Shown: in pieces, positions 445 to 23,658 of the stretch | How positions within the stretch are numbered: the first letter of the stretch is position 1 | Layout of the letters: each line of letters begins with the position of its first letter | Source of the DNA: a virus | Direction: 5' to 3' (one strand) | Virus record (IMG/VR): IMGVR_UViG_3300027881_000077 | Span: 1-23,983 of that record | DNA length: 23,983 bases | Position numbers and translations under genes: made by a program | Notes under the pieces: model-generated | Databases searched by the model: none | Seen by the model: the letters and a program-made list of their open reading frames with translations, nothing else | Told to the model about the DNA's origin: nothing

Positions 445-1201
445 TTCCATCTAATTTAGTTCCATCTGCCGACAAATCTCTACCATCTACAGTGACCCCT
501 GTTTCCGTTGTTATATTCGCGTTTACATGTAATTCATTATTATTATATTTACCTCCAACGGCCACCCATCTCGTAGTTCCCCCATCCAGTGTATCTAATG
601 AATAAGGAATATTTACAGCAGGGCCGTTGCTATCAAAAATATACTCTGTCTTCTCGTCAGCTATACCGCCGCCGTTGACTTCACAAGCAAGGATAGGGGT
701 TCCTGATGATATGTTTAATAAGTTAAATTCTGTTGAAGGATCGTCAACGTTAACAACAGGTATAGTTACGACTGTTCCAGGGGCCCCTGTTGCTCCCGCC
801 GCTCCCGCAGGGCCTGCTGGCCCTCCTGTTATAATTGATCCAGAGAATGCTTCTGCCCTAGCTGCTTCTACCGAAATGGGGTCTGTTTGACCTGTTGCTC
901 CTGTGACTATAGTTTCATTTTTTTGCTGGGTTTCCCCATTAACGTCTATCCATGAAGAGTCTACCTGTATAACAGCCAGCGCATTATTATCCGTGTCTAC
1001 AGTATCGACCAGTACGGCCTGGTACCTACCCGCACTATCTGTTATTACTTCTTCGTTTACCGCCAACAAGTTTTCGTTTATGGAGAACGATTTTGAAGTA
1101 AATTTTACAACAGCTCCCTCTACTCCTGTAACACCATCGGCTTCAAAAATATAACCAAAAACAGTTCTTGTGGGTACTGAATTTGGGACAGTTATACTCA
1201 T
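1..1201 (-). CDS. Tail fibre protein, N-terminal part (runs off left edge)
   Basis: This is an open frame of 400 codons with no stop before the window edge, so the C-terminus is missing. It starts at an ATG sharing one base with the stop of the upstream gene (TAATG), with AGGAGA about 10 bases upstream. Residues 1-90 look like an Ig- or prealbumin-like beta domain (GYIFEADGVTGVEGAVVKF, then TDSAGRYQAVL). A short collagen-like stretch, GPAGPAGAAGATGAPG, lies near residues 124-141. A beta-rich linker follows, and from about residue 252 come 37-residue tandem repeats containing GIETGATADQTGAEIKLAYE. The GATADQT repeat is common in tail fibres of environmental tailed phages and probably forms a trimeric shaft; the receptor-binding tip would lie beyond the window. 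It is the last gene of the late structural cluster here. The fibre assignment is confident; which fibre (main or side) is not known. Confidence 0.85.
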   Translation of the reverse strand, partial: MSITVPNSVPTRTVFGYIFEADGVTGVEGAVVKFTSKSFSINENLLAVNEEVITDSAGRYQAVLVDTVDTDNNALAVIQVDSSWIDVNGETQQKNETIVTGATGQTDPISVEAARAEAFSGSIITGGPAGPAGAAGATGAPGTVVTIPVVNVDDPSTEFNLLNISSGTPILACEVNGGGIADEKTEYIFDSNGPAVNIPYSLDTLDGGTTRWVAVGGKYNNNELHVNANITTETGVTVDGRDLSADGTKLDGIETGATADQTGAEIKLAYEAELNTNAFTDAEQTKLTGIEAGATADQTGAEIKLAYEAELNTNAFTDAEQTKLTGIETGATADQTGAEIKLAYEAELDTNAFTDAEQTKLTGIETGATADQTGAEIKLAYEAELDTNAFTDAEQTKLTG

Positions 1202-1392
1202 TACTTAAGTCTCCTAAGAACTTCTTTTATATCTGACTGCATGACCTTTTGTTCCTCGTAGATTCTCTCTATCATTTTTTCATTATTATCAACTTTCACC
1301 TCTGTTTGGTAAGATAAAACTATTGAAGATGAGGCTGCTACTATTGCCGTAATAAGTAAAGAGTTAACGAGTTTGGAAAAGTCAAGCTTCAT
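1201..1392 (-). CDS. Small single-pass membrane protein with coiled-coil tail (holin- or spanin-like?)
   Basis: This is a 63-residue protein. Residues 1-9 are short and charged (MKLDFSKLV), residues 10-29 form one hydrophobic segment (NSLLITAIVAASSSIVLSYQ), and residues 35-63 are a charged amphipathic helix (NNEKMIERIYEEQKVMQSDI, then KEVLRRLK) that could form a coiled coil. The gene overlaps the preceding one by four bases (ATGA), has an AAGGAT ribosome site, and its stop shares a base with the fibre start. A tiny one-span protein with a helical tail next to the fibre gene would suit a holin or an inner-membrane spanin, since T7 places its holin gene just after the fibre gene. No endolysin is visible, so the lysis role is only an inference from size, topology and position. 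Confidence 0.6.
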   Translation of the reverse strand: MKLDFSKLVNSLLITAIVAASSSIVLSYQTEVKVDNNEKMIERIYEEQKVMQSDIKEVLRRLK

Positions 1393-1610
1393 TCATCCTT
1401 CCCATGCATGAGTTGGCACACTGAGTTTAGTAGTTTTTTTAAATCAATTCCAGCATTTATCAAAACAGGGTCGCTTACTGCTGTCTTACATTTTACTGAC
1501 TGTACATCCTGCTTTAATACTGAATATTCAGGCGTTGATGTGGCTAAAAATAACTGATGTTCGGCGTAACTGTTAAAGCTTAGTAATATTAAAATTAAAA
1601 ATAGCTTCAT
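1389..1610 (-). CDS. Small exported protein with Sec signal peptide, unknown function
   Basis: This is a 73-residue protein with a clear Sec signal peptide: MK, hydrophobic core LFLILILLSF, then NSYA before a likely cleavage at EHQ (about residue 16). The mature part is about 57 residues and contains two cysteines (VKCKTAV and SVCQLM), which could form a disulfide in the periplasm. There is no lipobox cysteine at the cleavage site, so it is not a lipoprotein. The start shares one base with the stop of the large exported protein upstream (TAATG), with AGGTGG ahead of it, suggesting translational coupling and a joint role. I do not recognise a family. It could be a chaperone or partner for the upstream adhesin or a small periplasmic lysis or exclusion factor; neither is shown by the sequence. 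Confidence 0.6.
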   Translation of the reverse strand: MKLFLILILLSFNSYAEHQLFLATSTPEYSVLKQDVQSVKCKTAVSDPVLINAGIDLKKLLNSVCQLMHGKDE

Positions 1611-3820
1611 TATTCCACCTTCTTTATTTTAACTTTAGTATAAATTTCATTATCCCCTGCTGCTAATGCTCCCCCGAATCCGTCTACACCACTAGCAGTA
1701 TCACCCCGACTTTCGATATCAATACAAGTCTCAGTATTTACTGTCAGTTCCCCATTGATTATAGAACTTGTTTGCGTGGCAGGGGCTCCCACATCAGATC
1801 GAGCATTTTGTCCCATTAAAGAAGTTGAAGTTGCGGCCACTCCTGCCGGGTCAACTAAGACCCTAGCCCTATGGTCAGTTACGTTCAACATAGGCGCTGC
1901 TGCCCAAATTTCATAAGAACCTTTCTGTAAGCAAATTCTATTTGAAGAAAGAGACAAGAAGGAGCAATCTCCGTCAAGAGTATTAAGGTCTCTTTGCTCC
2001 CAGGTTGCAGCGGTATTACTCCCACCAAATACTCCATTATCTTTAACGTCAGTAATGTAGCAAGTTCTACCCAAAGGATTTGCAAACAAAAATTTAGGTG
2101 CTGCGTCTAGACCCTCAATATCGACAGTAAAGCGAATAGTCACATCACTGTTATTAACTCCTAAACTTGCGCCAGTATCTGCCGTGTAGGTTGTAGTATC
2201 AACGCCACCACCATTTCTATCAAACCCAATAAAACTATTGCCAGCCGAACCAATAACAAGATAATGAATAGTCGTTGGGTCATCAATCTCCATGTTTCCA
2301 AGTCTATGATTTGCCGTGTATCCGTTAGAAATAACCATTTCATCAGGGAGAGAGACTTTACCTTCAACGGCTGTACCTGTTCCAGTATCAGCTCTAATAA
2401 TAACCTCTAAAGAATCCCCCACCTGTCTATATCTTGCTTGAGTTATAGTAACAGTACCAAAACCCGTGAAGATCGGGGCGTAGTCGGTCCAGTTGGTTAA
2501 ATTTGAGGTGGCAGGCAACCCTATATGCTCAGAGTCCGTTTTACATAGTATAGATAATACTCCGTCATCATTAGCTCCTAAACCGTTAACTGTATTCCCG
2601 TGCGGTCTAATAATATCCCCACTCTTTACAGTCCCTTCCCATGATACGCTTTCATTAGTGTTTGCTGCATCCATATTAGCGATAACTATTCTGTGTTCAT
2701 CTGTAATTGTTCTCAAGTTTGAAGTGAGCTGGTTAGAGTTCTTCGATAACCCCATTTCGCCATTTTGATTATATATTGCAGAGAATGATATATTGCAAGA
2801 TGCGTCTTTAGTGAATACTAATTCTGTTCCATCAGTGGCACTTGTTGTTACTTTTATGGGGCCTACTGTTTGAGATGCTGCGATAGCCGAGAAGTCTAAA
2901 TCTTCCCCAAGGGCTATCTCTCCAAACCTATCTATAGCTGTATTTGTGCTTGCTTTACCTAGGAAATTTCTAAGTCTTACTACCGTTGTTGCTTCCAAAA
3001 GAAGCTTGCTGCCTTTATCTGGTGTAACTTTAAAATTTTCCCAGACTAACTCTGCTGAAGTTGAAGCATTAGCTACCTGAAAACCTACTCTAATCTGAGT
3101 ACATGCCTCTTTAACAAAAATTGAAGACGTAATCAATCCCGACCCTTTCTCAATTTGTGTACTAGTCCCCAGACTTCCAGTAGGAATATTGGAAAAGTCA
3201 TCTTCGCAAATAGCCTTTAATAGAATATCTCCATCTTCTCCGTCAAAAGTATAAAGAGACTGTAGTCCAATTTCTCCACCACGAAAACCAGGAGGTATAT
3301 CCACAGGTTCTGATGCAATAAAATCATTTACCGAGCCAGCAGCTTGTGTATATTTATAAACCGACGGCCCATCCAGAAGGTCGGCACCCGTTGTTGATAT
3401 AGCAAATGTTCCTGACAAAGATGCCAATGGAGTAGAGGTCGCAAATAATGGATCATCACCCGTTAAGAAGTTTGCGATAAATCCATAATCAGAACTACCT
3501 GCCTTATAGAAATTTCGCTCTCCTTCAAATTCTTGCCCATACTTTACCCATTTATCTGTAAGTCCATTATCTTGCTTTTGATATATTTCAGCCACGTCTG
3601 AAATCATAAGAGACCCGGTAGCGGCTGTTGCGGTAACAGGTAGTCCTGGCGTACTTGTAGCGCCCAGGGAAAAACTAGTCGGTAATGTGCCAAGTCTTAT
3701 TTGTTGGTACAGCGAAGTAGCTTCCGTTTGTCCATCAGGACTGGCCCCAGTGAACCATTGAGCTTTAGCTAATCCGGTAATCAAAAAGAAAGCTACCAAT
3801 ACGAGAAATACTTTTTTCAT
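1610..3820 (-). CDS. Exported tail-fibre-like adhesin with C1q/TNF-like C-terminal head
   Basis: This is a 736-residue protein. Residues 1-20 are a textbook Sec signal peptide (MKK, core VFLVLVAFFLITGL, AKA cleavage before QW). The centre is beta-rich. Residues about 445-595 begin with TDYAPIFTGFGTVTITQARY and RQVGDSLEV, a module I associate with phage tail proteins. Residues about 596-736 hold TWEQRDLNTLDGDCSFLSLS, GSYEIWAAAP, DHRARVL and a final IYTKVKIKK strand. These match the C1q/TNF-like head found at the C-terminus of many phage fibres. The mature protein has eight cysteines, an even number consistent with disulfides. The start has AGGA seven bases upstream, and the gene follows the preceding one by four bases. 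A signal peptide is odd for a virion protein assembled in the cytoplasm: the product may be secreted or surface-displayed, or the segment may be kept as a hydrophobic anchor. The adhesin call is fairly sure; its location is uncertain. Confidence 0.75.
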   Translation of the reverse strand: MKKVFLVLVAFFLITGLAKAQWFTGASPDGQTEATSLYQQIRLGTLPTSFSLGATSTPGLPVTATAATGSLMISDVAEIYQKQDNGLTDKWVKYGQEFEGERNFYKAGSSDYGFIANFLTGDDPLFATSTPLASLSGTFAISTTGADLLDGPSVYKYTQAAGSVNDFIASEPVDIPPGFRGGEIGLQSLYTFDGEDGDILLKAICEDDFSNIPTGSLGTSTQIEKGSGLITSSIFVKEACTQIRVGFQVANASTSAELVWENFKVTPDKGSKLLLEATTVVRLRNFLGKASTNTAIDRFGEIALGEDLDFSAIAASQTVGPIKVTTSATDGTELVFTKDASCNISFSAIYNQNGEMGLSKNSNQLTSNLRTITDEHRIVIANMDAANTNESVSWEGTVKSGDIIRPHGNTVNGLGANDDGVLSILCKTDSEHIGLPATSNLTNWTDYAPIFTGFGTVTITQARYRQVGDSLEVIIRADTGTGTAVEGKVSLPDEMVISNGYTANHRLGNMEIDDPTTIHYLVIGSAGNSFIGFDRNGGGVDTTTYTADTGASLGVNNSDVTIRFTVDIEGLDAAPKFLFANPLGRTCYITDVKDNGVFGGSNTAATWEQRDLNTLDGDCSFLSLSSNRICLQKGSYEIWAAAPMLNVTDHRARVLVDPAGVAATSTSLMGQNARSDVGAPATQTSSIINGELTVNTETCIDIESRGDTASGVDGFGGALAAGDNEIYTKVKIKKVE

Positions 3821-3824
3821 ACTG

Positions 3825-5531
3825 CTATCCTAAAAAGTTAATTAGTACGATGCCCGTAGTAACATCCCCACTAAAACCCCCGAGTCCTGACCTAACTTGT
3901 AAACTAACTCTACTATTTTGCGGAATGGCAACCGGCATAATATGCCCAGGTAAACCACCAGGAGGGATATCCAACTTATCCACTTCTGCTGCCGCAGCTC
4001 CCAATGCCAATTTTATTACTGAGCCAGTGGCCGTAAATACCTGAATAGCTTTAACAGCAGTTGCGCCAATATCGGCAGAAATTTCTACATACGCAGCAGT
4101 TGTAATATTAGATGCACCATTTTCTAAGCTCGCCGTGTGAACAACATCCAAGGATTCTTTCACTGGTATAGGTGACTGGTCGGATGCCATAGTCACAGGC
4201 AAAGAAGATGCCATAACTTTCTGGCCCTTTGCTTCAATAGATCCACCTGATTCGGAGATTCTAAGGCTTACGCCTTGGCGGGTTTCTGTTCCTGCTCCGC
4301 TATCCAAATCATGAGACCCTACTTTTCCATCTAGAGAGGAAAGCGTAACTTCTGTTGCTAACGGACCTGGATCTACTATGTCAACTTGCATCTCTGTTCC
4401 AGCTACCGCGCCGGCTATAGTGGTGCTATTGGTCTGAATAGCTGTCAAGACGACAATATCTTCAGTTGAAAGAGTTGTGGCCAGAGAAGATGCTCGAGCC
4501 TTTTGTCCTAAAGAAGCTGGTAATTTTGTATTTATAGCAGAAAGCGTAACTTCTGTTGCTAACGGCCCACCATCAACAATATCAACTTGAACTTCTGTAC
4601 CACTTACAGTTCCCGCCAAAGAAGTCAGAGAGGTCTGCATGGAAGTTAGTATTGTTTCCTGTTCTGTTGATAGCACCACGGGAATAGAATCAACACTGGC
4701 CTGTTGTGCTTTGGCTTCAATAGAACCACCGGATGCAGATATTCTAATGTTTACACCCTGTCGTGTTTCTGTGCCAACCCCGCTATCTAGATCATGGCTA
4801 CCCATTTTTCCATCTATACTGGTTGTATTTGCCCTTACTGTAGAGTCAGAAACTTCACCTTCATTTGCTGCGTTTATAGACCACTCTTCTACACCGTCAC
4901 CGATTCTGGTGACATCTGGATTTGCCCCTACATGAGATAATTGTACGTTGATATCTCCTGCTGTCAGTGTCACCTCTACGCCGTCGAATTGAACTATTTC
5001 AACAGGTAAAGGAATAGTGTTGGCAACAACGGTCGTATCTTTTGTAACTTGCGTGTCTGTGTAAACACCACCAGGCCCACGCCTTATTTGTACTGGGCCT
5101 GTAATAACTCCACCCGACGAGGTGTAGGCGGGCGTAACCCCCCTAAGCAATTGTAATGTGTCGCCTATTGCAAAAATAACTTGCGATCCAGATGAGTCTG
5201 TAGCTATCCCGTCGATCTCTACTTCTGTGGCAGAGATAATTTTTTTAATTGAAAATTCTCTTTCTTCGATACCATTTGCTGTAGTTAGAATCCTTAAAGC
5301 GTCCCCTCTTTTTGCCCCGTGACTACCTGTGAAGACTGCCCTAATAGAGGAAGATCCAGCAGCTATGGTCAAAGGGGCACCTGGAGTTACTTCGAAATAT
5401 CCCCTAATAAGCACGTCCATTCCGTTTCTATGCTTATCAACACCCTGGACGGTTACATTATTTAATTCTAATTCTGTAGATGAATTGGCCTCATATAGTT
5501 GGCCTACGGCGGCTAAGCCCTGAACTTTCAT
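3825..5531 (-). CDS. Mosaic repeat-containing virion protein, probable tail/adhesin component
   Basis: This is a 568-residue protein when started at the ATG at 5531 (MKVQGLAAVGQ), which has a perfect GGAGG five bases upstream; an in-frame GTG at 5543 overlaps that ribosome site and is unlikely. The N-terminal 200 residues are beta-rich. The C-terminal two thirds are built of duplicated blocks: GSHDLDSGxGTETRQGV with SGGSIEAK (two copies, 161 residues apart) and GTExQVDIVDxGPLATEVTL (two copies, 67 residues apart). Phrases such as ASSLPVTMASDQSPIPV recur in structural proteins of environmental phages. The gene lies between the ejection proteins and the exported adhesin, where T7-like phages encode fibre or tail-adaptor proteins, so a fibre-adaptor or appendage role is inferred. 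No enzymatic motif is visible. Confidence 0.7.
   Translation of the reverse strand: MKVQGLAAVGQLYEANSSTELELNNVTVQGVDKHRNGMDVLIRGYFEVTPGAPLTIAAGSSSIRAVFTGSHGAKRGDALRILTTANGIEEREFSIKKIISATEVEIDGIATDSSGSQVIFAIGDTLQLLRGVTPAYTSSGGVITGPVQIRRGPGGVYTDTQVTKDTTVVANTIPLPVEIVQFDGVEVTLTAGDINVQLSHVGANPDVTRIGDGVEEWSINAANEGEVSDSTVRANTTSIDGKMGSHDLDSGVGTETRQGVNIRISASGGSIEAKAQQASVDSIPVVLSTEQETILTSMQTSLTSLAGTVSGTEVQVDIVDGGPLATEVTLSAINTKLPASLGQKARASSLATTLSTEDIVVLTAIQTNSTTIAGAVAGTEMQVDIVDPGPLATEVTLSSLDGKVGSHDLDSGAGTETRQGVSLRISESGGSIEAKGQKVMASSLPVTMASDQSPIPVKESLDVVHTASLENGASNITTAAYVEISADIGATAVKAIQVFTATGSVIKLALGAAAAEVDKLDIPPGGLPGHIMPVAIPQNSRVSLQVRSGLGGFSGDVTTGIVLINFLG
4228..4815 (-). repeat. Two interleaved pairs of in-frame direct repeats in the mosaic tail protein
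   Basis: Block R1 is present at 4228-4332 and 4711-4815 (offset 483 bp, 161 codons) and encodes the SGGSIEAK to GSHDLDSG segment. Block R2 is present at about 4339-4471 and 4540-4672 (offset 201 bp, 67 codons) and encodes the GPLATEVTLS segment. The copies are diverged at DNA level but clearly alignable, so they are older than the near-identical fibre repeats at the left edge. All offsets are multiples of three, keeping the protein frame. Confidence 0.85.
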
Positions 5532-5577
5532 TTTTACCTCCACTCCGCTTTAGAGAGATTCTCTGGATACATAAATC

Positions 5578-7992
5578 TTACTCGAAAGGGCTAAAAAGAT
5601 CAACCCATCTCTCTTGACCAGCCTCTTCCATCCTTCTTTCTTGCCTTCTAATAAACCCAGGAGATGCCCTCTCAGACAACTCTGTTAAAAACCACTTATT
5701 TACGACTGGTAAAACAAAAGGATGCTGCATCAAGGGCATGTTTCTTTTCCACAAATTTAGAGCATCATTTGCAACCTTGTCCCCTGCTGATGCCTTTGAG
5801 ATCAATCGCATAACATCGTCCGTCTGCCCATAAACTGGGCCTGCTAAATCTTTTAGAAAGCTCTGCCATTTGTATCTCCCACCAGCAGCATCTACAAGGA
5901 ACTGGAATTGCAGAGGTAGTACCGATCTTGATAAGGCCTCTGTCATATTCTTTTGTGTTAACATGTCTCTGGGCATCTTTCCTTCGGCTAAGTCTCTCGC
6001 CCATAGACCCATCGCGGCCATGACAAAAGCCTCCGTCATTAGAAGGCCAAACATTTTAGCATTTCCAAGATCCTGCATCCCTTCGAAAAACCCTTGTGCT
6101 TTTGCGGTGGGGTTAGCTGTAGTTATTTCTGTTATGACCCTGGCTATTTCTATTGGATAGGATTTAAATTGCCAGAACGCCACCATAGCCTTCCCTGGTA
6201 CTGTGTTAGGGTTTAAGCCTTGATTCATAAACGATCTTGTTCTTAGACCTGTCGCCGGGGATGACATTCTGCCTTGGTGGTTTAGAAATGCTCCTAGCTT
6301 TTTAGCTAATATAAATAGCCTATCGTCGCTAACCCCTTTTATTTTTAAAGTCTCTACTTTCTCAGGAGACATCAAGGGCAAATTTTCTATGGAGTTATCT
6401 ACAGATTTTTGTAATATCTCCCAATCTTTTTTAGATATATCAAAATTATTTAATTCGTATTGAAGTCTTGGGTGTAGTTCTTTAAATGACTTTTTTGCAT
6501 TATCTGCCAAGTGGCTAGAAAATGCATGAGATCCTGTCGCCTTGTTTATATTCGAAAGATACGGCATAAGAGATGCTTTCATTGACAAATTGGTAAACTT
6601 TTTCATCTTCCCATGTAATCCTTGCCCGACTCCAAATCTATCCAATTCCCCCGCAAAGTTGATTCTTAGTATTTGTCCGAATTTTTTTCTGTCTGATGGA
6701 CTAAGATTTTTATAATATGATTTAAGTATTTTCCCATTGGACCCAAGTATAGGGGACCCTGTCTTTGCTGCAAAATTCGCTACAGCTACAGCATAGTCAG
6801 GGAATGTTGAAAAAGATGATAGCATTAACTTAGAGCTTATACCTACACCTAAAGCTCCATCTATAATGTTTGTGACTAAGTTTCTTTCTGAAGGTGTTTC
6901 AAAACCTAGCATATTATCTATCAAGGCCTTTCTCTTGCTTAAGAGTCCTCCACTTTTAAATTTTCTTGCTTCCGCTGCCCCGTGCAGTTTTTTTATTTCT
7001 TTTGCCATCTCGTTCTCTAATGCTTTTAAAACTTGCTTGGGTTTAGGTCCAAATTTCATGTAAGTAGCCACGGATCTAGCAGTACCTCTTATTGATCTAT
7101 CTATAGCGTCCTGAATATTTCCTGATCCAAAAGACTGATTATATTTATATAGACTCTCACCGTCGGCAAAGTGAATCATTCTTTTTTGATTCAGAAAGTT
7201 TCCTCCCTGTGCATTGTATTCCCCAGACACAATGTTATCGTACACTCCTGATAAGAACTTGTGTTTCTGCTTGGTGCTAACAGCAGCGTTGCCAAAAGTT
7301 TGAGCCTCATCTAACTTAATGTCATTAAACATGAAGTTTATCCAATCTTCTTTTTTGGTACCTGTTATTATTATATCGTCGTGAACTTGTCTCCATAAAT
7401 GATCTTGCCTGACCTTAATAATTATTCCAGCTTTTTCCGCTTCCAAGGCTGAAAATTTATCTATTTTAATAACCGCGTCTGCTGACTTTTGTATATCGGG
7501 GCTCATGTCTGAGATACTTTTACCCCTGGATTTCTTAAAAGCAGCATCTATAATATCCCGCTCATTTTTAGGGTCGCTAAAGAATTTTTCTATTTTGTTT
7601 TCTACAAGAACTTGGTCTTTAAAATTTAATAATTTAGCATTGGTTTCTGATTTTATATTCTCATAGGAAAACCTACCTGCCTTTACACTATAATCAGTAT
7701 TTTCCGCAAGTCCTTCAAAGGCCTTGTTGTAATGACCTTTCTTTAAAAATTCTGGTTGCATGCCAAAATCTAACACTTCTATAGTTTTTTGTTCATGTAT
7801 TAGATTCTCTCTAGCGACGGCTAAGATATCGTTCTTTCCATCATCAATAGCTTTTTGAAGATTGTTGGCATAATTATGCCCTCGCTTTAATCTTCTTTGG
7901 TTTTCGATTATAGCTTTTATCTCATCGTCAGTATGTTCCAACCTATCCTTTAATCTTTCTTTAATACTTAGAAAACAGGAGTCTTCAGCCAT
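5578..7992 (-). CDS. Large internal virion / DNA-ejection protein, C-terminal half of a gp16-like function
   Basis: This is an 804-residue protein starting at ATG 7992 with AGAGG five bases upstream, eight bases after the previous stop and in a different frame. An in-frame TGA lies just upstream, so it does not read through from its neighbour. Residues 1-350 are mostly charged helices. The central region (SSKLMLSSFSTFPDYAVAVA, then a DRFGVGQGL to NNFDISKKDWEILQKS section) and the C-terminal NTVPGKAMVAFWQFKSYPI resemble a helical module at the C-terminus of very large podovirus internal virion proteins. A hydrophobic segment sits near residues 647-664. T7 gp16 is about 1,300 residues; this gene plus its upstream neighbour total about 1,250. 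The likely role is in the channel that carries DNA across the host envelope. I see no lytic transglycosylase motif. Family placement rests on position and overall character rather than residue-level proof. Confidence 0.7.
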   Translation of the reverse strand: MAEDSCFLSIKERLKDRLEHTDDEIKAIIENQRRLKRGHNYANNLQKAIDDGKNDILAVARENLIHEQKTIEVLDFGMQPEFLKKGHYNKAFEGLAENTDYSVKAGRFSYENIKSETNAKLLNFKDQVLVENKIEKFFSDPKNERDIIDAAFKKSRGKSISDMSPDIQKSADAVIKIDKFSALEAEKAGIIIKVRQDHLWRQVHDDIIITGTKKEDWINFMFNDIKLDEAQTFGNAAVSTKQKHKFLSGVYDNIVSGEYNAQGGNFLNQKRMIHFADGESLYKYNQSFGSGNIQDAIDRSIRGTARSVATYMKFGPKPKQVLKALENEMAKEIKKLHGAAEARKFKSGGLLSKRKALIDNMLGFETPSERNLVTNIIDGALGVGISSKLMLSSFSTFPDYAVAVANFAAKTGSPILGSNGKILKSYYKNLSPSDRKKFGQILRINFAGELDRFGVGQGLHGKMKKFTNLSMKASLMPYLSNINKATGSHAFSSHLADNAKKSFKELHPRLQYELNNFDISKKDWEILQKSVDNSIENLPLMSPEKVETLKIKGVSDDRLFILAKKLGAFLNHQGRMSSPATGLRTRSFMNQGLNPNTVPGKAMVAFWQFKSYPIEIARVITEITTANPTAKAQGFFEGMQDLGNAKMFGLLMTEAFVMAAMGLWARDLAEGKMPRDMLTQKNMTEALSRSVLPLQFQFLVDAAGGRYKWQSFLKDLAGPVYGQTDDVMRLISKASAGDKVANDALNLWKRNMPLMQHPFVLPVVNKWFLTELSERASPGFIRRQERRMEEAGQERWVDLFSPFE

Positions 7993-8000
7993 AAAATCCT

Positions 8001-9332
8001 CTAATCACATTTATCTGCTAGTTTATAAATCTCACTTACCTGTGCAGATTTTTTTCGAGACCGTGTTGTAACATCTTTAACTTTTTTAGAGTAGGTGGTT
8101 CTCTTTTCCTTTGGAACTAACTCTGGGTTATGTAACTCTTCTATATCTTTTTTTATTTTCTCGCTCACTGGTTGCAGGTCACTCTCATCAATTGTCGCTA
8201 TAGCGTGTGCTGTCTCCTTGTCATTATACATATCCTCTTCAGGCGAATTAGCTTTTTCCCTCATTTCTACAGGATCAAAATTTAAATGTTCTTTAGCCTG
8301 CTTAGTTGATTTAGTTTGTTCAATTAGTAAATCAAGTTCTTTAATAAATTCTAGTTTTTCCTTAGTATTCTTCCAAGGAATTGATACTATTGATTGTTTC
8401 TTCATTGCTTCTAGTTTATCTGTAAATCTATGTAAAGAGTCAGGATCTACTCCTCGAATTAGGTCCACTTCTTCTGGTGTTAAATCTGGACGCTTACCTT
8501 GGTTCATTTTAGCTTCGGTTAGGTCTACAAATTTACCAATTTCTTCAAAAGTATAATCATGTAAACCTGCATAAACCCCCATCTCTTCTTTTGGTTTACC
8601 TTCAAATAGCTTAGAAAAGCTTATTTCCCCTTTATGAAATTGTTTTATTTTTTTAGCTGTAAATTTAATTCCAGAGAAAGCTACAGGGAATGCTATACTA
8701 CTAAGTATTACGTTCGATATATTTTCCCATTCGTCAACGTCTCTCCGCTCTAGTCTCTGGTTAGGAAGTACAAGTAAAGCTTCGGATAGGGTGTTACCAA
8801 CAACACCTTCGGCTATAGTAGCTCCAAGCGCCTTACCTGAACCCGAAATGAGAAAACTTTTTGAGATTAATCCCGTAGTTGCTGCGACATGTGTACCCCC
8901 GGCAGTCAAAACTCCTGCCGCAATCCCAACGGGATCTATACCGCTACCTAACAATTCCGCACCAAAACCCAAAAGGAAATTTGTAGGCCCTTCCGTTTGT
9001 CCATAAAGAATGACTCTCTCCAGGGCTTTTCTCTCCTCTTGATACTGAATTATTTTTTCAGCTTTTGCCCTGGACGTAGGCTCCGTCCAGGGGACATCAG
9101 GGTTTAATTCTTCATTTAAAATATCATGATGTGTTACATCGTCGTATCTTTGTGCCTTTTGAATTTGAATGCTTCTTAACCCTGACTTGAATGGGCCGCT
9201 CTCCCAAGCCAATTCAAATTTAGCCGCCAAGGTCTCACCAGTAGTACTTCTTTGGACAATAGGGGCGTCACTTTCGTCAGACTCTCCCGCCTCTTCCCCA
9301 AACTGCAATCCTGCTGGTATTAAATTACTCAT
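8001..9332 (-). CDS. Internal virion protein, N-terminal half of a gp16-like function
   Basis: This is a 443-residue protein. Residues 1-115 are polar, with an acidic start (GEEAGESDESDA). Residues about 118-190 are a glycine/alanine-rich hydrophobic stretch containing GSGIDPVGIAAG, a pattern seen in the membrane-active part of podovirus internal virion proteins. The rest (200-443) is charged and helical, ending in a lysine-rich tail (KKVKDVTTRSRKKSAQ). The start overlaps the stop of the gp15-like gene by eight bases and has no strong ribosome site, so translation is probably coupled. It lies directly before the 804-residue protein, and together they match the size and position of T7 gp16. 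It may insert in the host membrane during ejection. No transglycosylase catalytic motif was recognised in either half. Confidence 0.65.
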   Translation of the reverse strand: MSNLIPAGLQFGEEAGESDESDAPIVQRSTTGETLAAKFELAWESGPFKSGLRSIQIQKAQRYDDVTHHDILNEELNPDVPWTEPTSRAKAEKIIQYQEERKALERVILYGQTEGPTNFLLGFGAELLGSGIDPVGIAAGVLTAGGTHVAATTGLISKSFLISGSGKALGATIAEGVVGNTLSEALLVLPNQRLERRDVDEWENISNVILSSIAFPVAFSGIKFTAKKIKQFHKGEISFSKLFEGKPKEEMGVYAGLHDYTFEEIGKFVDLTEAKMNQGKRPDLTPEEVDLIRGVDPDSLHRFTDKLEAMKKQSIVSIPWKNTKEKLEFIKELDLLIEQTKSTKQAKEHLNFDPVEMREKANSPEEDMYNDKETAHAIATIDESDLQPVSEKIKKDIEELHNPELVPKEKRTTYSKKVKDVTTRSRKKSAQVSEIYKLADKCD

Positions 9333-16215: not shown

Positions 16216-17250
16216 TTATGCTTCAAAACAAATCACTTCTACGACTTTTTCTTCCTCAAGTCTGGTACACCCAACCGATTCGGCTGCATAAATCTGAGTC
16301 CCAAAACGTTTGTCGGTACGTTCTGCGATACGGGCAAAGATATCTACACCAGTGGCAGATAACATCCCATCTTCAGCCCATGTGATATTTGATCGTCCTT
16401 GGCCAGTGGGGAGCGAACCTACTCCTGCCCCAAGTTCTGAACCTACACCGCCATTAAACTCGTTGTAAGCTAAAGCACCACCTGGATTACTTATTGGAAG
16501 TCTTTCGGATCGAACAAAATCAAACCCATAAAACTCGCTGATCTTTCCAGTAGTAAGAGCTTGTACCGAAACAAAATCACTTGAAGTGGCTTTAGTCAGA
16601 TTCATTAGATTTTGTTTTTGTTTATTGGTCCATGCCCAATACTTCTTAATGCTTTCATCGACATCATTTGCGTCATACTTTCCACCACAAGCAATAATTG
16701 TCTCAACAGTAAGTCCTACGCCTGTGGTAGTTCCGGCTGAATCAAAACATGCAAGTTTTTGAGTGTCTGGCAATGCAACAATTGTGCTTCCATCTTCTCC
16801 TGCTCGGGCAGACCCTAGAGCTGATTCAATAAAGCGATCATCTTTAAACCTATTTAAAGACATAACGGCTGCTTGAACATAAGCATCATCAGGATTAATG
16901 AGTAGACGTACTCGGTCCATTTTGTCGATCATATCCCCATATTCCGCATCTCTCAGAGTGTTCATTCTACGCGAGTGAGGAGTGTTTAAAATAGGGGTAT
17001 CACCATGACGAGTAAGGATTTCTTGTGCATCAACCACTCCTACTCTTTCATAAAAATCAGCCTTGCTTGACTGTGTTTCTTGTCTGGCTTTACTAAAAAG
17101 CCGGGATTCTTTCTGTTGAGCAAGCATGATGATATTGTTTTTATACCCCTCAACAAATGCAACTGTGATCTCAAAACTACCGCGAGAACTAGAATAAAAT
17201 CCTAGAAAAAAGCTCGTAATTTTAAGAAGGAAACATTGAAAACGATTCAT
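16216..17250 (-). CDS. Major capsid protein
   Basis: This is a 344-residue protein. From about residue 25 it follows a recognisable podovirus-type capsid pattern: FEITVAFVEGYKNNIIMLAQ, RLFSKARQETQSSKADFYERVG, HGDTPILNTPHSRRM, LRDAEYGDMIDKMDRVRLLI, then NPDDAYVQAAVMSLNRF and a C-terminus ending KVVEVICFEA. BPP-1-like and marine podovirus capsids share this layout (HK97 fold). The ATG at 17250 has AAGAGG five bases before it, so this start is well supported, yet it adds about 24 hydrophobic residues (MNRFQCFLLKITSFFLGFYS) not expected in the family. It has its own promoter and a leader of about 110 bases upstream, and the cement gene and terminator downstream, fitting high expression. The identity is secure; the meaning of the N-terminal extension is not. 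Confidence 0.9.
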   Translation of the reverse strand: MNRFQCFLLKITSFFLGFYSSSRGSFEITVAFVEGYKNNIIMLAQQKESRLFSKARQETQSSKADFYERVGVVDAQEILTRHGDTPILNTPHSRRMNTLRDAEYGDMIDKMDRVRLLINPDDAYVQAAVMSLNRFKDDRFIESALGSARAGEDGSTIVALPDTQKLACFDSAGTTTGVGLTVETIIACGGKYDANDVDESIKKYWAWTNKQKQNLMNLTKATSSDFVSVQALTTGKISEFYGFDFVRSERLPISNPGGALAYNEFNGGVGSELGAGVGSLPTGQGRSNITWAEDGMLSATGVDIFARIAERTDKRFGTQIYAAESVGCTRLEEEKVVEVICFEA

Positions 17251-17398: not shown

Positions 17399-18439
17399 TT
17401 ATACTACTGATCCAGAAAAAGCGCCGGCTACTTTATTGGCCTGCTTTACCCCGTGAGCAATCTTTAATAATCTTTGGTACTCGGCGACCCATAATCCGTG
17501 CTCTTTGCTGGCGGTCCTGGCTTCAGGTTTTTGCATGTGTTCTTTTATTGCTTTTAGTGCATCCTGTGGTTCCATCCTAGCAGTTTGCCGGGCCTTAGTA
17601 TCAAATGTGTCATCTTCCTGAAGTAAGCCTTTTCCCACTTTTTGAAATAGTTCAGTTAATAATGGGTCATCAAAATAACCTCTGTCTGAAAAAGCTTGCA
17701 TTTGCTCGTCATCTGCAAATTGCTTTAATCCAGCCATTGCTTGGTTTAAATTTGAGCCGTAAGCCTCCCCCCATGTATCTTTAAGTTTCTGTTGCTCTTG
17801 TTCAAATATAGCATCTGCTTTACTTTTTTGTTCCTCTGCCCCAAGTTTTATGGACTCATTGAAAGCATCGGCAACTTTTTGAAAAGCCTCTGGTCGTATC
17901 CCATTTTCATGTGCTGTTTTCACTAGACTTTTAAACATATCATCATTTGCCTTAAGACCTTCTGGAACATTATTTTTAACTTTATAATCGTTCAAATCTT
18001 TAGGTATTCCAATCTTTGAATTAAATTCCGCCCATTCGTTAGAGCCCCACTCTTCTTTAGGTACTGGAACTTTATCTGCTCCAAGTAATCCTTGGTTGTG
18101 AACATAGGATTTTAAAACATTTCCCATGTTTAATTTCCCGTCATTATCAAAAAAATTTTTCAATGGACCGTTGACTGCATTTCTCACGCTATCATCTACA
18201 CCGTCAGGAAGGCTAACGACTGGTCCATTGTCTCCAAGACGCACACCTCCGGCGTCTTGTTCCCCTTCGTTTCCTCCATCCGTTCCACTATTTCCAGCAG
18301 CTGCTGTATCATTTCCGGGGGGACTATCTTCATTGGTTGCGCCGCCTTCATTACCCCCTCCTAGGAATCCACCCTCTCCGTCAGCGAAAAACATGAACTG
18401 GAAAATCAAAATGTAAAAAAACCTATTCACTAATTGCAT
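17399..18439 (-). CDS. Capsid assembly scaffolding protein
   Basis: This is a 346-residue protein from the ATG at 18439, which has AGGAGG six bases upstream; an ATG five codons earlier lies before that site and is rejected. From residue 16 the sequence is ADGEGGFLGGGNEGGA and continues as a disordered, acidic, glycine-rich region to about residue 75. It then becomes a charged helical protein with VPVPKEEWGSNEWAEFNSKI, GIPKDLNDYKV and WGEAYGSNLNQAMAGL, typical of podovirus scaffold proteins. It ends in a basic-aromatic helix. The gene lies between portal/Bbp19-like and capsid genes, as expected. The start codon adds a hydrophobic leader (QLVNRFFYILIFQFMFF) that is unusual for a soluble scaffold; a start at the ATG at 18394 would remove it but has no ribosome site. 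It overlaps the preceding gene by 17 bases. Confidence 0.85.
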   Translation of the reverse strand: MQLVNRFFYILIFQFMFFADGEGGFLGGGNEGGATNEDSPPGNDTAAAGNSGTDGGNEGEQDAGGVRLGDNGPVVSLPDGVDDSVRNAVNGPLKNFFDNDGKLNMGNVLKSYVHNQGLLGADKVPVPKEEWGSNEWAEFNSKIGIPKDLNDYKVKNNVPEGLKANDDMFKSLVKTAHENGIRPEAFQKVADAFNESIKLGAEEQKSKADAIFEQEQQKLKDTWGEAYGSNLNQAMAGLKQFADDEQMQAFSDRGYFDDPLLTELFQKVGKGLLQEDDTFDTKARQTARMEPQDALKAIKEHMQKPEARTASKEHGLWVAEYQRLLKIAHGVKQANKVAGAFSGSVV

Positions 18440-18710
18440 ACCTTGCCTCCTCATCTGCTCCCCTCTTCATTAATTCTAACACGATCTTGGGATCAGTTTG
18501 AAATTTAGTTAATATATATAAAACTAGTTCTCTCTTACCTTCGTTTAAATGCGTTTGAACATTCGGGCATTTAGAAGAATATGTTGGGCGTAAAAAATTT
18601 GAATTATTCATTAAATCATAAAGAACTACCTGGCCTTCTTTTGAATTGAATATATGTTTATACGCTTTAATAATATCAGCGGTACGCTGACTTCTTTTGA
18701 ATAATGCCAT
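18423..18710 (-). CDS. Bbp19-like small phage structural protein
   Basis: This is a 95-residue protein with the pattern of the Bbp19-like group named from Bordetella phage BPP-1: AYKHIFNSKEGQVVLYDLMN, an aromatic/serine segment around LRPTYSSKCPNVQTHL, then NEGKRELVLYILTKFQ. The family motif is roughly F-x-T-xx-GxxVL-x-DL, followed by EGxR and a helix. It lies between portal and scaffold, the same place as in BPP-1. AAGGG precedes its ATG, and the portal stop is nine bases upstream. Function is unproven; a minor head or connector role is likely from context. Confidence 0.75.
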   Translation of the reverse strand: MALFKRSQRTADIIKAYKHIFNSKEGQVVLYDLMNNSNFLRPTYSSKCPNVQTHLNEGKRELVLYILTKFQTDPKIVLELMKRGADEEARYAISE

Positions 18711-20682: not shown

Positions 20683-22086
20683 CTAACCGAGTTCATTGTA
20701 AGACATATCAGCGTAAACAGGCAACCCATTATTACGACTAGCATTAAACTCATCTTTGCGGTCATCGAGAGCACTATATTTGAACATATCATACCCATGG
20801 CTTGACCAATCCTTAAGAGGGTTATCCTTGAAGGTCATTCTCTTGGAATCCCATTCTCTCTGGTAATTCGTGAGACATTCTATGAGTCTACCACAATTTT
20901 CTTCGTTAATGTCACAATCTTTTAGTCTTATACGAGCTGCCTGCATACCGTTCTCGTTGCTTGTTCTTTTTTGTATAGTCAAAGGCCTAAGCCCTAATTT
21001 CTCTGCAAGACTTTTTCTAGTGGCCCCAGTTACCATTAAATCCCTTTTGTTACCATCCCATGGCCATACATGACGCCCGTAAATGTATGGTTTCCTTTGA
21101 ATAACATTTGCTAAGTACCAGTCAATACCTTTCCCGGTATCTTCGTAATAATCAATATATCTCCACCTACCGTTTACATATTGCCGAAATCCTATGGCCG
21201 TATGGTCATCCATACCAAGATCCCAGAAAGTAACAACTGGGATTGCAGGTACCCATGGAAATCTGCCTATTGTTCCATCAATTCTTTTATCGTTTATTAT
21301 TTCCCCAAAGAAACTTCCCCTGATAGCGGCGGTGAATGAGCATTCTAATTCCTGTTCGTATTCTTCCGGGTCCATGTCGGCCCGCATTTCGTCTAGTTCT
21401 TCCTGTTCCATAACCCCTGTTTCTGAGGCTTTAAAAACCGCTGTGTACCATGAGGCGTTTGCTTCAGCTTTTTTAAGTCTGCTGTAAAAATGATTTTGCC
21501 CTTTCGGAGTACCAATAAAAATAGCCCATCCCTTACGATCAGACAAAGCAGGTCTAACCACTTCACCCCATATAGAGGGGTCACATTGAGCATATTCATC
21601 CAAAATTGCGCCGTCCAAATACAAACCCCTGAGAGAGTCAGGATTATCAGCACCGAGTAACATGAACTTGATAAAATCACCTTCTCGGGTAACTGTCCCT
21701 GCTGTATTTTTTTGTTCTGGGCGATGTATTGAGACCGTGAGTTCACTTTTATTTACCTCCCTGAAAGGAATATTTTTAGTAAAATCTAATAAATATTCCC
21801 ATGAAATCATCTTTGCTTGCCTGTACGTTGGTGCAATATAAGCATACTGAGGCCTATATCTATTACACCGCAATCCCTGGTCTACCATTTCATTTATAGA
21901 CAATACAGTTTTGCCAAAACGTCTATGGCAAACTAGAACATTAAAACGCAAAAGACTTTCATGAATTAACTGCTGCAATCTCCTGGGACTGTAGCCTGTG
22001 GAAACACGTTCCTCCCCTTCGGGTAAAGGCTTTCCTTTCCAAGATTTACCTCTACCCATAGCGGGATTAAATTTATACAGATCCAA
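20683..22086 (-). CDS. terL: Terminase large subunit (packaging ATPase and nuclease)
   Basis: This is a 467-residue protein with the complete two-domain motor. Walker A is CHRRFGKT at residues 53-60, and Walker B is ILDE at 161-164 within YLDGAILDEYAQ. The coupling motif IGTPKG is at 191-196. The RNase H-like nuclease has WDLG (D289), D344 in WPWDGNKRD and D434 in HGYDMFKYSA. It translocates phage DNA into the procapsid through the portal and cuts concatemers. The listed start is a TTG inside the end of the preceding gene (14-base overlap), with AGGGAAAGAAG upstream; an ATG at 22059 (nine codons later) lacks a ribosome site but cannot be excluded. It sits upstream of the portal, unlike T7, where it is at the end of the late genes. 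Confidence 0.96.
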   Translation of the reverse strand: MDLYKFNPAMGRGKSWKGKPLPEGEERVSTGYSPRRLQQLIHESLLRFNVLVCHRRFGKTVLSINEMVDQGLRCNRYRPQYAYIAPTYRQAKMISWEYLLDFTKNIPFREVNKSELTVSIHRPEQKNTAGTVTREGDFIKFMLLGADNPDSLRGLYLDGAILDEYAQCDPSIWGEVVRPALSDRKGWAIFIGTPKGQNHFYSRLKKAEANASWYTAVFKASETGVMEQEELDEMRADMDPEEYEQELECSFTAAIRGSFFGEIINDKRIDGTIGRFPWVPAIPVVTFWDLGMDDHTAIGFRQYVNGRWRYIDYYEDTGKGIDWYLANVIQRKPYIYGRHVWPWDGNKRDLMVTGATRKSLAEKLGLRPLTIQKRTSNENGMQAARIRLKDCDINEENCGRLIECLTNYQREWDSKRMTFKDNPLKDWSSHGYDMFKYSALDDRKDEFNASRNNGLPVYADMSYNELG

Positions 22087-23430: not shown

Positions 23431-23658
23431 CTAGTTTTGCGGTGCCCCTGCTTCTTCACGTTCCTGTAGGCATTCTTCGGCAAAATAGTCCACATAAGCT
23501 GCTAGGTTTAAGTAGCGTTCCGTTATTCTCTGGTTGATTAATTCTAGCTTTAAAATTTTATTTTTAAGAAAGGCTTCCCTTTCCTGGTGTTCTTCCAATG
23601 ACTTAGTGCTGCTCGAACAACTGATAAGAATAAAACTGATTAAAATAATGATTCGCAT
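23431..23658 (-). CDS. Small lipoprotein with helical heptads, possible outer-membrane spanin
   Basis: This is a 75-residue protein with a lipoprotein signal: MR, hydrophobic IIILISFI, then lipobox LISC with the cysteine at residue 14, followed by serines. The mature part (about 62 residues) is a charged helix (EEHQEREAFLKNKILKLELI) that could coil, with a second cysteine near the acidic C-terminus. T7 clusters holin and spanin genes around its small terminase, so a small lipoprotein next to terS may be an Rz1-type spanin. Arguments against: it is not proline-rich, as Rz1 proteins usually are, and no embedded Rz partner is visible. A surface-exclusion lipoprotein is another option. The start lacks a clear ribosome site and is preceded by a perfect palindrome. 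Confidence 0.6.
   Translation of the reverse strand: MRIIILISFILISCSSSTKSLEEHQEREAFLKNKILKLELINQRITERYLNLAAYVDYFAEECLQEREEAGAPQN

Follow-up and report, generated by a model that had tools for sequence, protein, structure and literature searches.

The fibre locus and its neighbourhood

The stretch of DNA analysed here, which we call the window, is a virus record of 23,983 bases in which all major genes lie on the minus strand in podovirus order: TerL, portal, scaffold, capsid, tail tube A and B, an acetyltransferase, internal virion proteins, an adaptor, and then the fibre gene and what follows it. On the 3′ side of the fibre gene are a small gene with a signal peptide, a small membrane protein, and a second fibre that is cut by the end of the record. 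The nearest isolates to the window are the HTVC010P-type pelagiphages, at about 39-41% in TerL and 24-25% in tail tube B. The place of the fibre gene behind the internal virion proteins and the adaptor fits that of a podovirus tail fibre, and the same placement is found in the relatives G003, G007, and L123-L145. The features of the locus are as follows:

3825..5543, minus strand: fibre adaptor of 572 residues with no signal peptide and no cysteine, directly upstream of the fibre gene; homologues in G003 (3.6e-54) and G007 (2e-48)
3828..3831, minus strand: Shine-Dalgarno-like AGGA, 7 nt before the fibre ATG and overlapping the end of the adaptor gene
1610..3820, minus strand: putative exported tail fibre gene, an open reading frame translated into 736 residues, with a match to the tail fibre family PHROG 24210
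3761..3820, minus strand: Sec signal peptide MKKVFLVLVAFFLITGLAKA, with cleavage predicted before QW (Q21); heuristic score 6.34
3518..3655, minus strand: first domain of the mature protein, residues 56-101 (36-81 of the mature chain), a homologue of the N-terminal domain that cytosolic fibres have at this slot
2987..3517, minus strand: middle, carbohydrate-binding-like beta module, residues 102-278, with C205 and C240; matched in L125 and G003
1616..2077, minus strand: C-terminal tip domain, residues 582-735, all-beta, with C587 and C619; matched by PHROG 24210 and in L125
1389..1610, minus strand: small gene of 73 residues directly downstream of the fibre gene, with signal peptide MKLFLILILLSFNSYA/EH and two mature cysteines

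The fibre gene starts with an ATG at position 3820, four bases after the stop codon of the adaptor gene, which ends at 3825. The coordinates, strand, and reading frame given in an earlier reading of this DNA (the sequence-only reading) are correct.

The signal peptide

Signal peptides were called with our own simple heuristic, which combines a positive start, a hydrophobic core, and an A-x-A motif; cleavage sites are predictions throughout. By this heuristic the window protein has the features of a substrate for Sec and signal peptidase I, namely a positive n-region, a core of 10-15 residues, and A-x-A: its n-region carries a charge of +2, its hydrophobic core is 14 residues long, and AKA is followed by QW. 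The sequence-only reading had described just such a signal peptide with AKA cleavage before QW, and the description is borne out by a score of 6.34, the highest among 288 ORFs of at least 200 residues in 20 phage genomes. Just three ORFs that do not lie at the fibre slot pass as well: a scaffold gene whose start is probably over-extended, and a serine protease present in two Sulfitobacter phages. The eight cysteines that had been counted in the mature part are also present, at residues 205, 240, 342, 426, 587, 619, 630, and 699. With its strong signal peptide the window protein departs from the usual rule for podovirus fibres, which are assembled in the cytoplasm and lack one.

The signal is conserved among relatives, and the window cleavage site aligns with AQA/QW in G003 and with VQA/QW in L123. 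The sequence-only reading had left room for a misassigned start; this artefact is excluded because relatives that have diverged to about 29% identity retain the A-x-A/QW arrangement.

Recurrence of the signal peptide at the fibre slot

Relatives were reached among IMG/VR records through searches with TerL, with the fibre N-domain, and with the adaptor family. Records with a related TerL yielded two homologues of the window fibre: G003, whose fibre begins MKRFLAALLVVITLAAQA/QWYDF and has a homologous adaptor upstream, and G015, in whose fibre the hydrophobic leader lacks a clear A-x-A site. Further fibres with signal peptides stand behind adaptors in G002, G007, G008, G012/G004, G013, G018, G021, L116, and ct8d5349. 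Altogether, about twenty distinct phage genomes, most of which come from metagenome DNA, have a gene that begins with a signal peptide directly downstream of an adaptor, either of the 3825-5543 family or T7-gp17-like. There is no signal peptide at the slot in G011, G017, two pelagiphages, Venkman, or the Sulfitobacter phages.

A scan with the adaptor family, which is blind to signal peptides, returned 35 IMG/VR loci. Among the loci whose following gene can be read, a fibre with a signal peptide directly follows this adaptor family in 11 genomes (the window, L123, L129, L131, L133, L134, L136, L137, L138, L140, and L144; L129 is the same as G003 and L133 the same as G007, and the signal peptides of L137 and L138 were read by eye). 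In seven others (L124-L127, L130, L132, and L145) the same adaptor family is followed by a cytosolic fibre that starts M(G)S..IFxGxxxKxLK, and these cytosolic fibres begin most often directly after a stop codon. By the heuristic, in this adaptor-anchored set, signal peptides occur at the slot in 8/18 cases and in 3/84 of the other ORFs of the same loci (p=2.4e-5), and two of the three non-slot signal peptides belong to small genes just after the fibre.

Signal peptides were also seen on structural-type or fibre-type proteins elsewhere. In L121, an unrelated phage, a protein with a signal peptide (MKRLLVSLLVLVGLTFA/GDLDPN) is encoded at 3086-3664 amid structural-type genes. In L122, a frame of 902 codons at 494-3202 opens with a signal peptide (MALGLKTLLLSLSLLTANA/KTLKV) and contains 15 cysteines as well as fibre-type repeats. 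In L007, the Manatee Spring phage ct3Et533, a protein annotated as FN3 at 21322-21867, near the end of the structural block, has the signal peptide MKHLLIILLFAVCAHA/QTLIP.

Exported and cytosolic fibres compared

Judged by their sequences, the exported and the cytosolic fibres of the slot are the same lineage. A profile built from the seven cytosolic N-termini matches the exported fibres of L134 (3.8e-12), L136 (3.2e-12), and L140 (9e-6), in which the mature chain opens with G(T/S)(F/Y)PQGDHVKLLKD, equivalent to IFKGGNVKQLKD. Since the mature chain of these three opens with the cytosolic-type segment, the signal peptide has been set before a normal fibre N-terminus. From its position and conservation, the IFxGxxxKxLK segment would be the part that docks on the adaptor. 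In the window protein this short segment is unrecognisable after the cleavage site, and only the next domain can be recognised there, the same profile matching residues 56-101 at 6.7e-5 (the best ORF outside the exported fibres reaches 0.043). Export by the infected cell, as the sequence-only reading had suggested, is well supported, since many phages have a signal peptide at this slot and three relatives prefix it to a recognisable N-terminal fibre segment.

The likeness extends over the rest of the protein. The middle module is matched in G003 at 1.7e-15, and the cytosolic fibre of L125 matches the window protein over residues 78-278 (1.6e-17) and again over 582-735 (1.8e-24). L125 has the same slot, an adaptor of the same family directly upstream, and homologous middle and tip domains; it differs in having no signal peptide, in starting VGSPTIFKGNFVKMLK directly after a stop codon, and in lacking C587/C619. 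PHROG 24210, "tail fiber protein", matches the C-terminal 148 residues of the window protein at 3.8e-12. The tail fibre of Sulfitobacter phage pCB2047-A / NYA-2014a, which belongs to this PHROG, shares the C-terminal tip domain at 28% identity but is a protein of 303 residues with the N-terminus MPRNGSNVYSRPAG, no signal peptide, and no cysteine. The fibre-like centre and C-terminus that had been noticed from the sequence thus hold, the first of them through the matches of residues 102-278 to fibre modules of relatives. In an AlphaFold model of the tip alone the fold resembled those of tail fibres, C1q, and collagen-type proteins, a likeness that is only supportive because the model has low confidence (pLDDT 55); a model of the whole mature protein, at pLDDT 33, was uninformative. 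Searches with the window protein gave no match among PDB sequences or plasmids, pattern scans with the window fibre itself and with the internal virion protein at 5578-7992 found no relatives, module searches of annotated phages beyond Sulfitobacter returned chance matches only, and the tip-domain alignment was too diverged for use as a scan query.

The two classes also differ in cysteine. Cysteine makes up 1.37% of the exported class and 0.35% of the cytosolic fibres from this slot, a difference of about fourfold (p=0.0017); taken alone, the eight cysteines of the window protein are only mildly unusual, at about twice the level of other virion proteins of the clade (p=0.02-0.06). The tip cysteines C587 and C619, which probably form a disulfide, are present in all three exported homologues examined (the window, G003, and G004c), and both of the cytosolic homologues compared with them (L125 and the Sulfitobacter fibre) lack the pair. 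C240 of the middle module is found in cytosolic L125 as well. The group of exported N-domains in G002, G018, and G021 has a conserved pair of its own, in PCP and G(S/F)C. Matched pairs are not universal in exported fibres, those of G015, G012, and L138 having few cysteines. Exported fibres are spread over several branches of the TerL tree, and the adaptor tree needs about three changes between the exported and cytosolic states, with weak support.

A probable rerouting of the fibre through Sec

We consider it probable that the window protein is a phage tail fibre, that is, a receptor-binding protein, which is rerouted through the Sec pathway of the host and joins adaptor-bearing virions at or after lysis. 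The fibre would be translated late and in coupling with the adaptor gene, as the gene order and the 4-nt gap suggest. The signal peptide would direct it across the inner membrane and would be cut before Q21, a predicted site that conservation supports. In the periplasm the fibre would fold and trimerise, with disulfides formed there, in keeping with the contrasts between exported and cytosolic fibres. Virions bearing the cytosolic adaptor 3825-5543 would then acquire the fibre as the envelope breaks at lysis, and the docked fibre would recognise the next host. We infer incorporation into virions, by docking on those that bear the adaptor, because the exported fibre keeps its slot behind the adaptor and because some relatives keep the N-terminal segment after the cleavage site. 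A soluble fibre freed at lysis dilutes quickly in water, so docking would need to be very efficient or to happen at the envelope. The virion reading is also favoured by ct8d5349, a complete genome in which the signal-peptide protein is the only large annotated fibre-like gene after a short T7-type adaptor and the tail region is without another.

A bacterial Sec host is plausible because strong Shine-Dalgarno signals precede the genes in these phage genomes. The Bacteroidia MAG that contains G021 was considered as an indicator of the host and dropped: Shine-Dalgarno sequences precede 14/22 genes on the phage contig (L075 / G021 contig C79) and 0/10 on another contig of the MAG, which makes mis-binning likely.

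On a broader scale, we see about an even chance that there is a widespread, uncultured, and mostly aquatic group of podovirus-type phages in which the capsid, tail, and adaptor are made in the cytoplasm and the fibre leaves through Sec, gains its disulfide bonds in the periplasm, and is not attached to the particle until lysis, the placement of a signal peptide being the switch between the two states, possibly more than once.

Alternative explanations

The sequence-only reading had offered three roles for an exported product. Of these, the comparative evidence most favours entry into particles at or after lysis; receptor blocking comes second, and coating of the surface of a lysogen is the least supported. 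The main rival is accordingly an exported receptor blocker in the manner of Llp of phage T5, occupying the receptor from the periplasm or after lysis, not being (or not mainly being) part of the virion, and thereby preventing superinfection and the loss of progeny on cell debris. We regard this as possible, with roughly one part in five of our belief behind it. A signal peptide joined to receptor-binding modules would suit such a protein, as would the precedent of Llp, a superinfection-exclusion lipoprotein that is likewise phage-encoded and exported and that blocks its receptor from the periplasmic side (PMC9586334), and the second fibre-like gene at 2-1201, having no signal peptide, could supply the virion fibre. 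However, Llp is a small lipoprotein and not fibre-like, whereas the window protein has 736 residues, an A-x-A site, and no lipobox, and a modular fibre of several hundred residues exceeds what a blocker needs. The window gene moreover lies in the fibre slot, where it replaces a cytosolic fibre, three relatives retain an N-terminal fibre segment past the cleavage site, and the tail region of ct8d5349 offers no other large annotated fibre.

It is unlikely that one gene yields two forms, one exported and one cytosolic through an internal start or inefficient export, the cytosolic form entering virions. Internal starts are frequent in phage genes, and in-frame ATGs are present downstream of the window signal peptide, but the positions of internal ATGs differ among relatives, and a start after the signal peptide in L134, L136, or L140 would delete the N-terminal fibre segment. 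Somewhat less likely again is an uncleaved hydrophobic anchor at the N-terminus, which would tether the fibre to the inner membrane or have a function in the particle: the leader of G015 could be read so, yet diverged relatives show the typical features of cleaved signals, with cores of 12-14 residues and an A-x-A at a fixed position before QW or KY.

Capture of a surface adhesin from the host, which the sequence-only reading had named as its alternative, or a protein of lysogenic conversion, strikes us as very unlikely. Signal peptides are normal on bacterial adhesins, and the relative ct8d5349 has a XerD-type recombinase; capture nevertheless goes unsupported because the slot, the adaptor, the N-domain, and the tip are all those of a phage tail-fibre lineage, some members of which are cytosolic, and neither plasmids nor PDB sequences hold a match. 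Chance or a misassigned start is the least credible explanation, and close to negligible, its one argument being the general risk of taking a hydrophobic stretch for a signal peptide, against which stand the presence of a signal peptide at the same slot of about twenty genomes and the enrichment in the adaptor-anchored set (p=2.4e-5).

Relation to known systems

In the textbook view, tailed phages build the whole particle in the cytoplasm. Virion coat proteins made with Sec signal peptides are familiar from the filamentous phages, whose pIII and pVIII are assembled into the untailed particle in the membrane as it is extruded; the window, by contrast, comes from a tailed phage of podovirus type whose capsid genes are cytoplasmic. 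On the tail fibres of the HTVC010P-type pelagiphages, which are the closest cultured phages in TerL and tail tube B, no signal peptide was found. The open-access papers searched yielded no mention of a tailed-phage fibre with a Sec signal peptide, though such fibres could still be reported elsewhere. In one survey, the DGR target proteins of phages were without the signal peptides seen on bacterial ones, and this absence was used as a mark of phage DGR proteins (PMC6199706).

The slot, with its cytosolic or Sec-exported fibre, offers a natural before-and-after pair for asking where and when fibres join the particle, and also whether phages use the disulfide chemistry of the periplasm for host recognition. 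Such fibres are overlooked by gene callers and annotators. The "Caprin-2 domain protein" UOF83102.1 of Caudoviricetes ct8d5349 (MW202898.1) resembles the window protein in being a large fibre after a T7-type adaptor and has an internal start, MFNKILIAIVFIITCLNA; its modules are different, and its record gives a start upstream of the likely one and does not mention export.

Genes beside the fibre

Genes with signal peptides follow the fibre in L134, L136, L116, and G004, as the small gene at 1389-1610 does in the window. As a conjecture, the small gene after an exported fibre may encode a co-exported helper.

Small second genes with signal peptides come after the exported fibre at 7889-8470 in L134, 8425-8892 in L136, 7000-7434 in L116, and 6919-7470 in L069, usually with at least two mature cysteines; no family match was found for them. 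In G008 and G015 this position close to the fibre is taken by lipoproteins. The cassette of L116 also contains a gene at 7434-8273 with the signal peptide MKLLILLTLICSSSAFA/VDGSKS and a match of 1e-15 to PHROG 8198, a family of unknown function.

The second fibre-like gene of the window, at 2-1201, has a collagen-like stretch and repeats of about 36 residues, carries no signal peptide, and is cut by the end of the record. At the other end, a small lipoprotein-like gene (MRIIILISFILISCSSS) at 23431-23658 adjoins the terminase genes. Finally, capsid and scaffold genes of the clade carry a short hydrophobic leader followed by (D/E)xxRG(S/E), as at 16216-17250 and 17399-18454 in the window and in L098, L112, and L093; examples from the window clade are MKLLNMLISFFNMLGQRGSFEI and MFAKLLKFLMFMLLDVRGEAGG.
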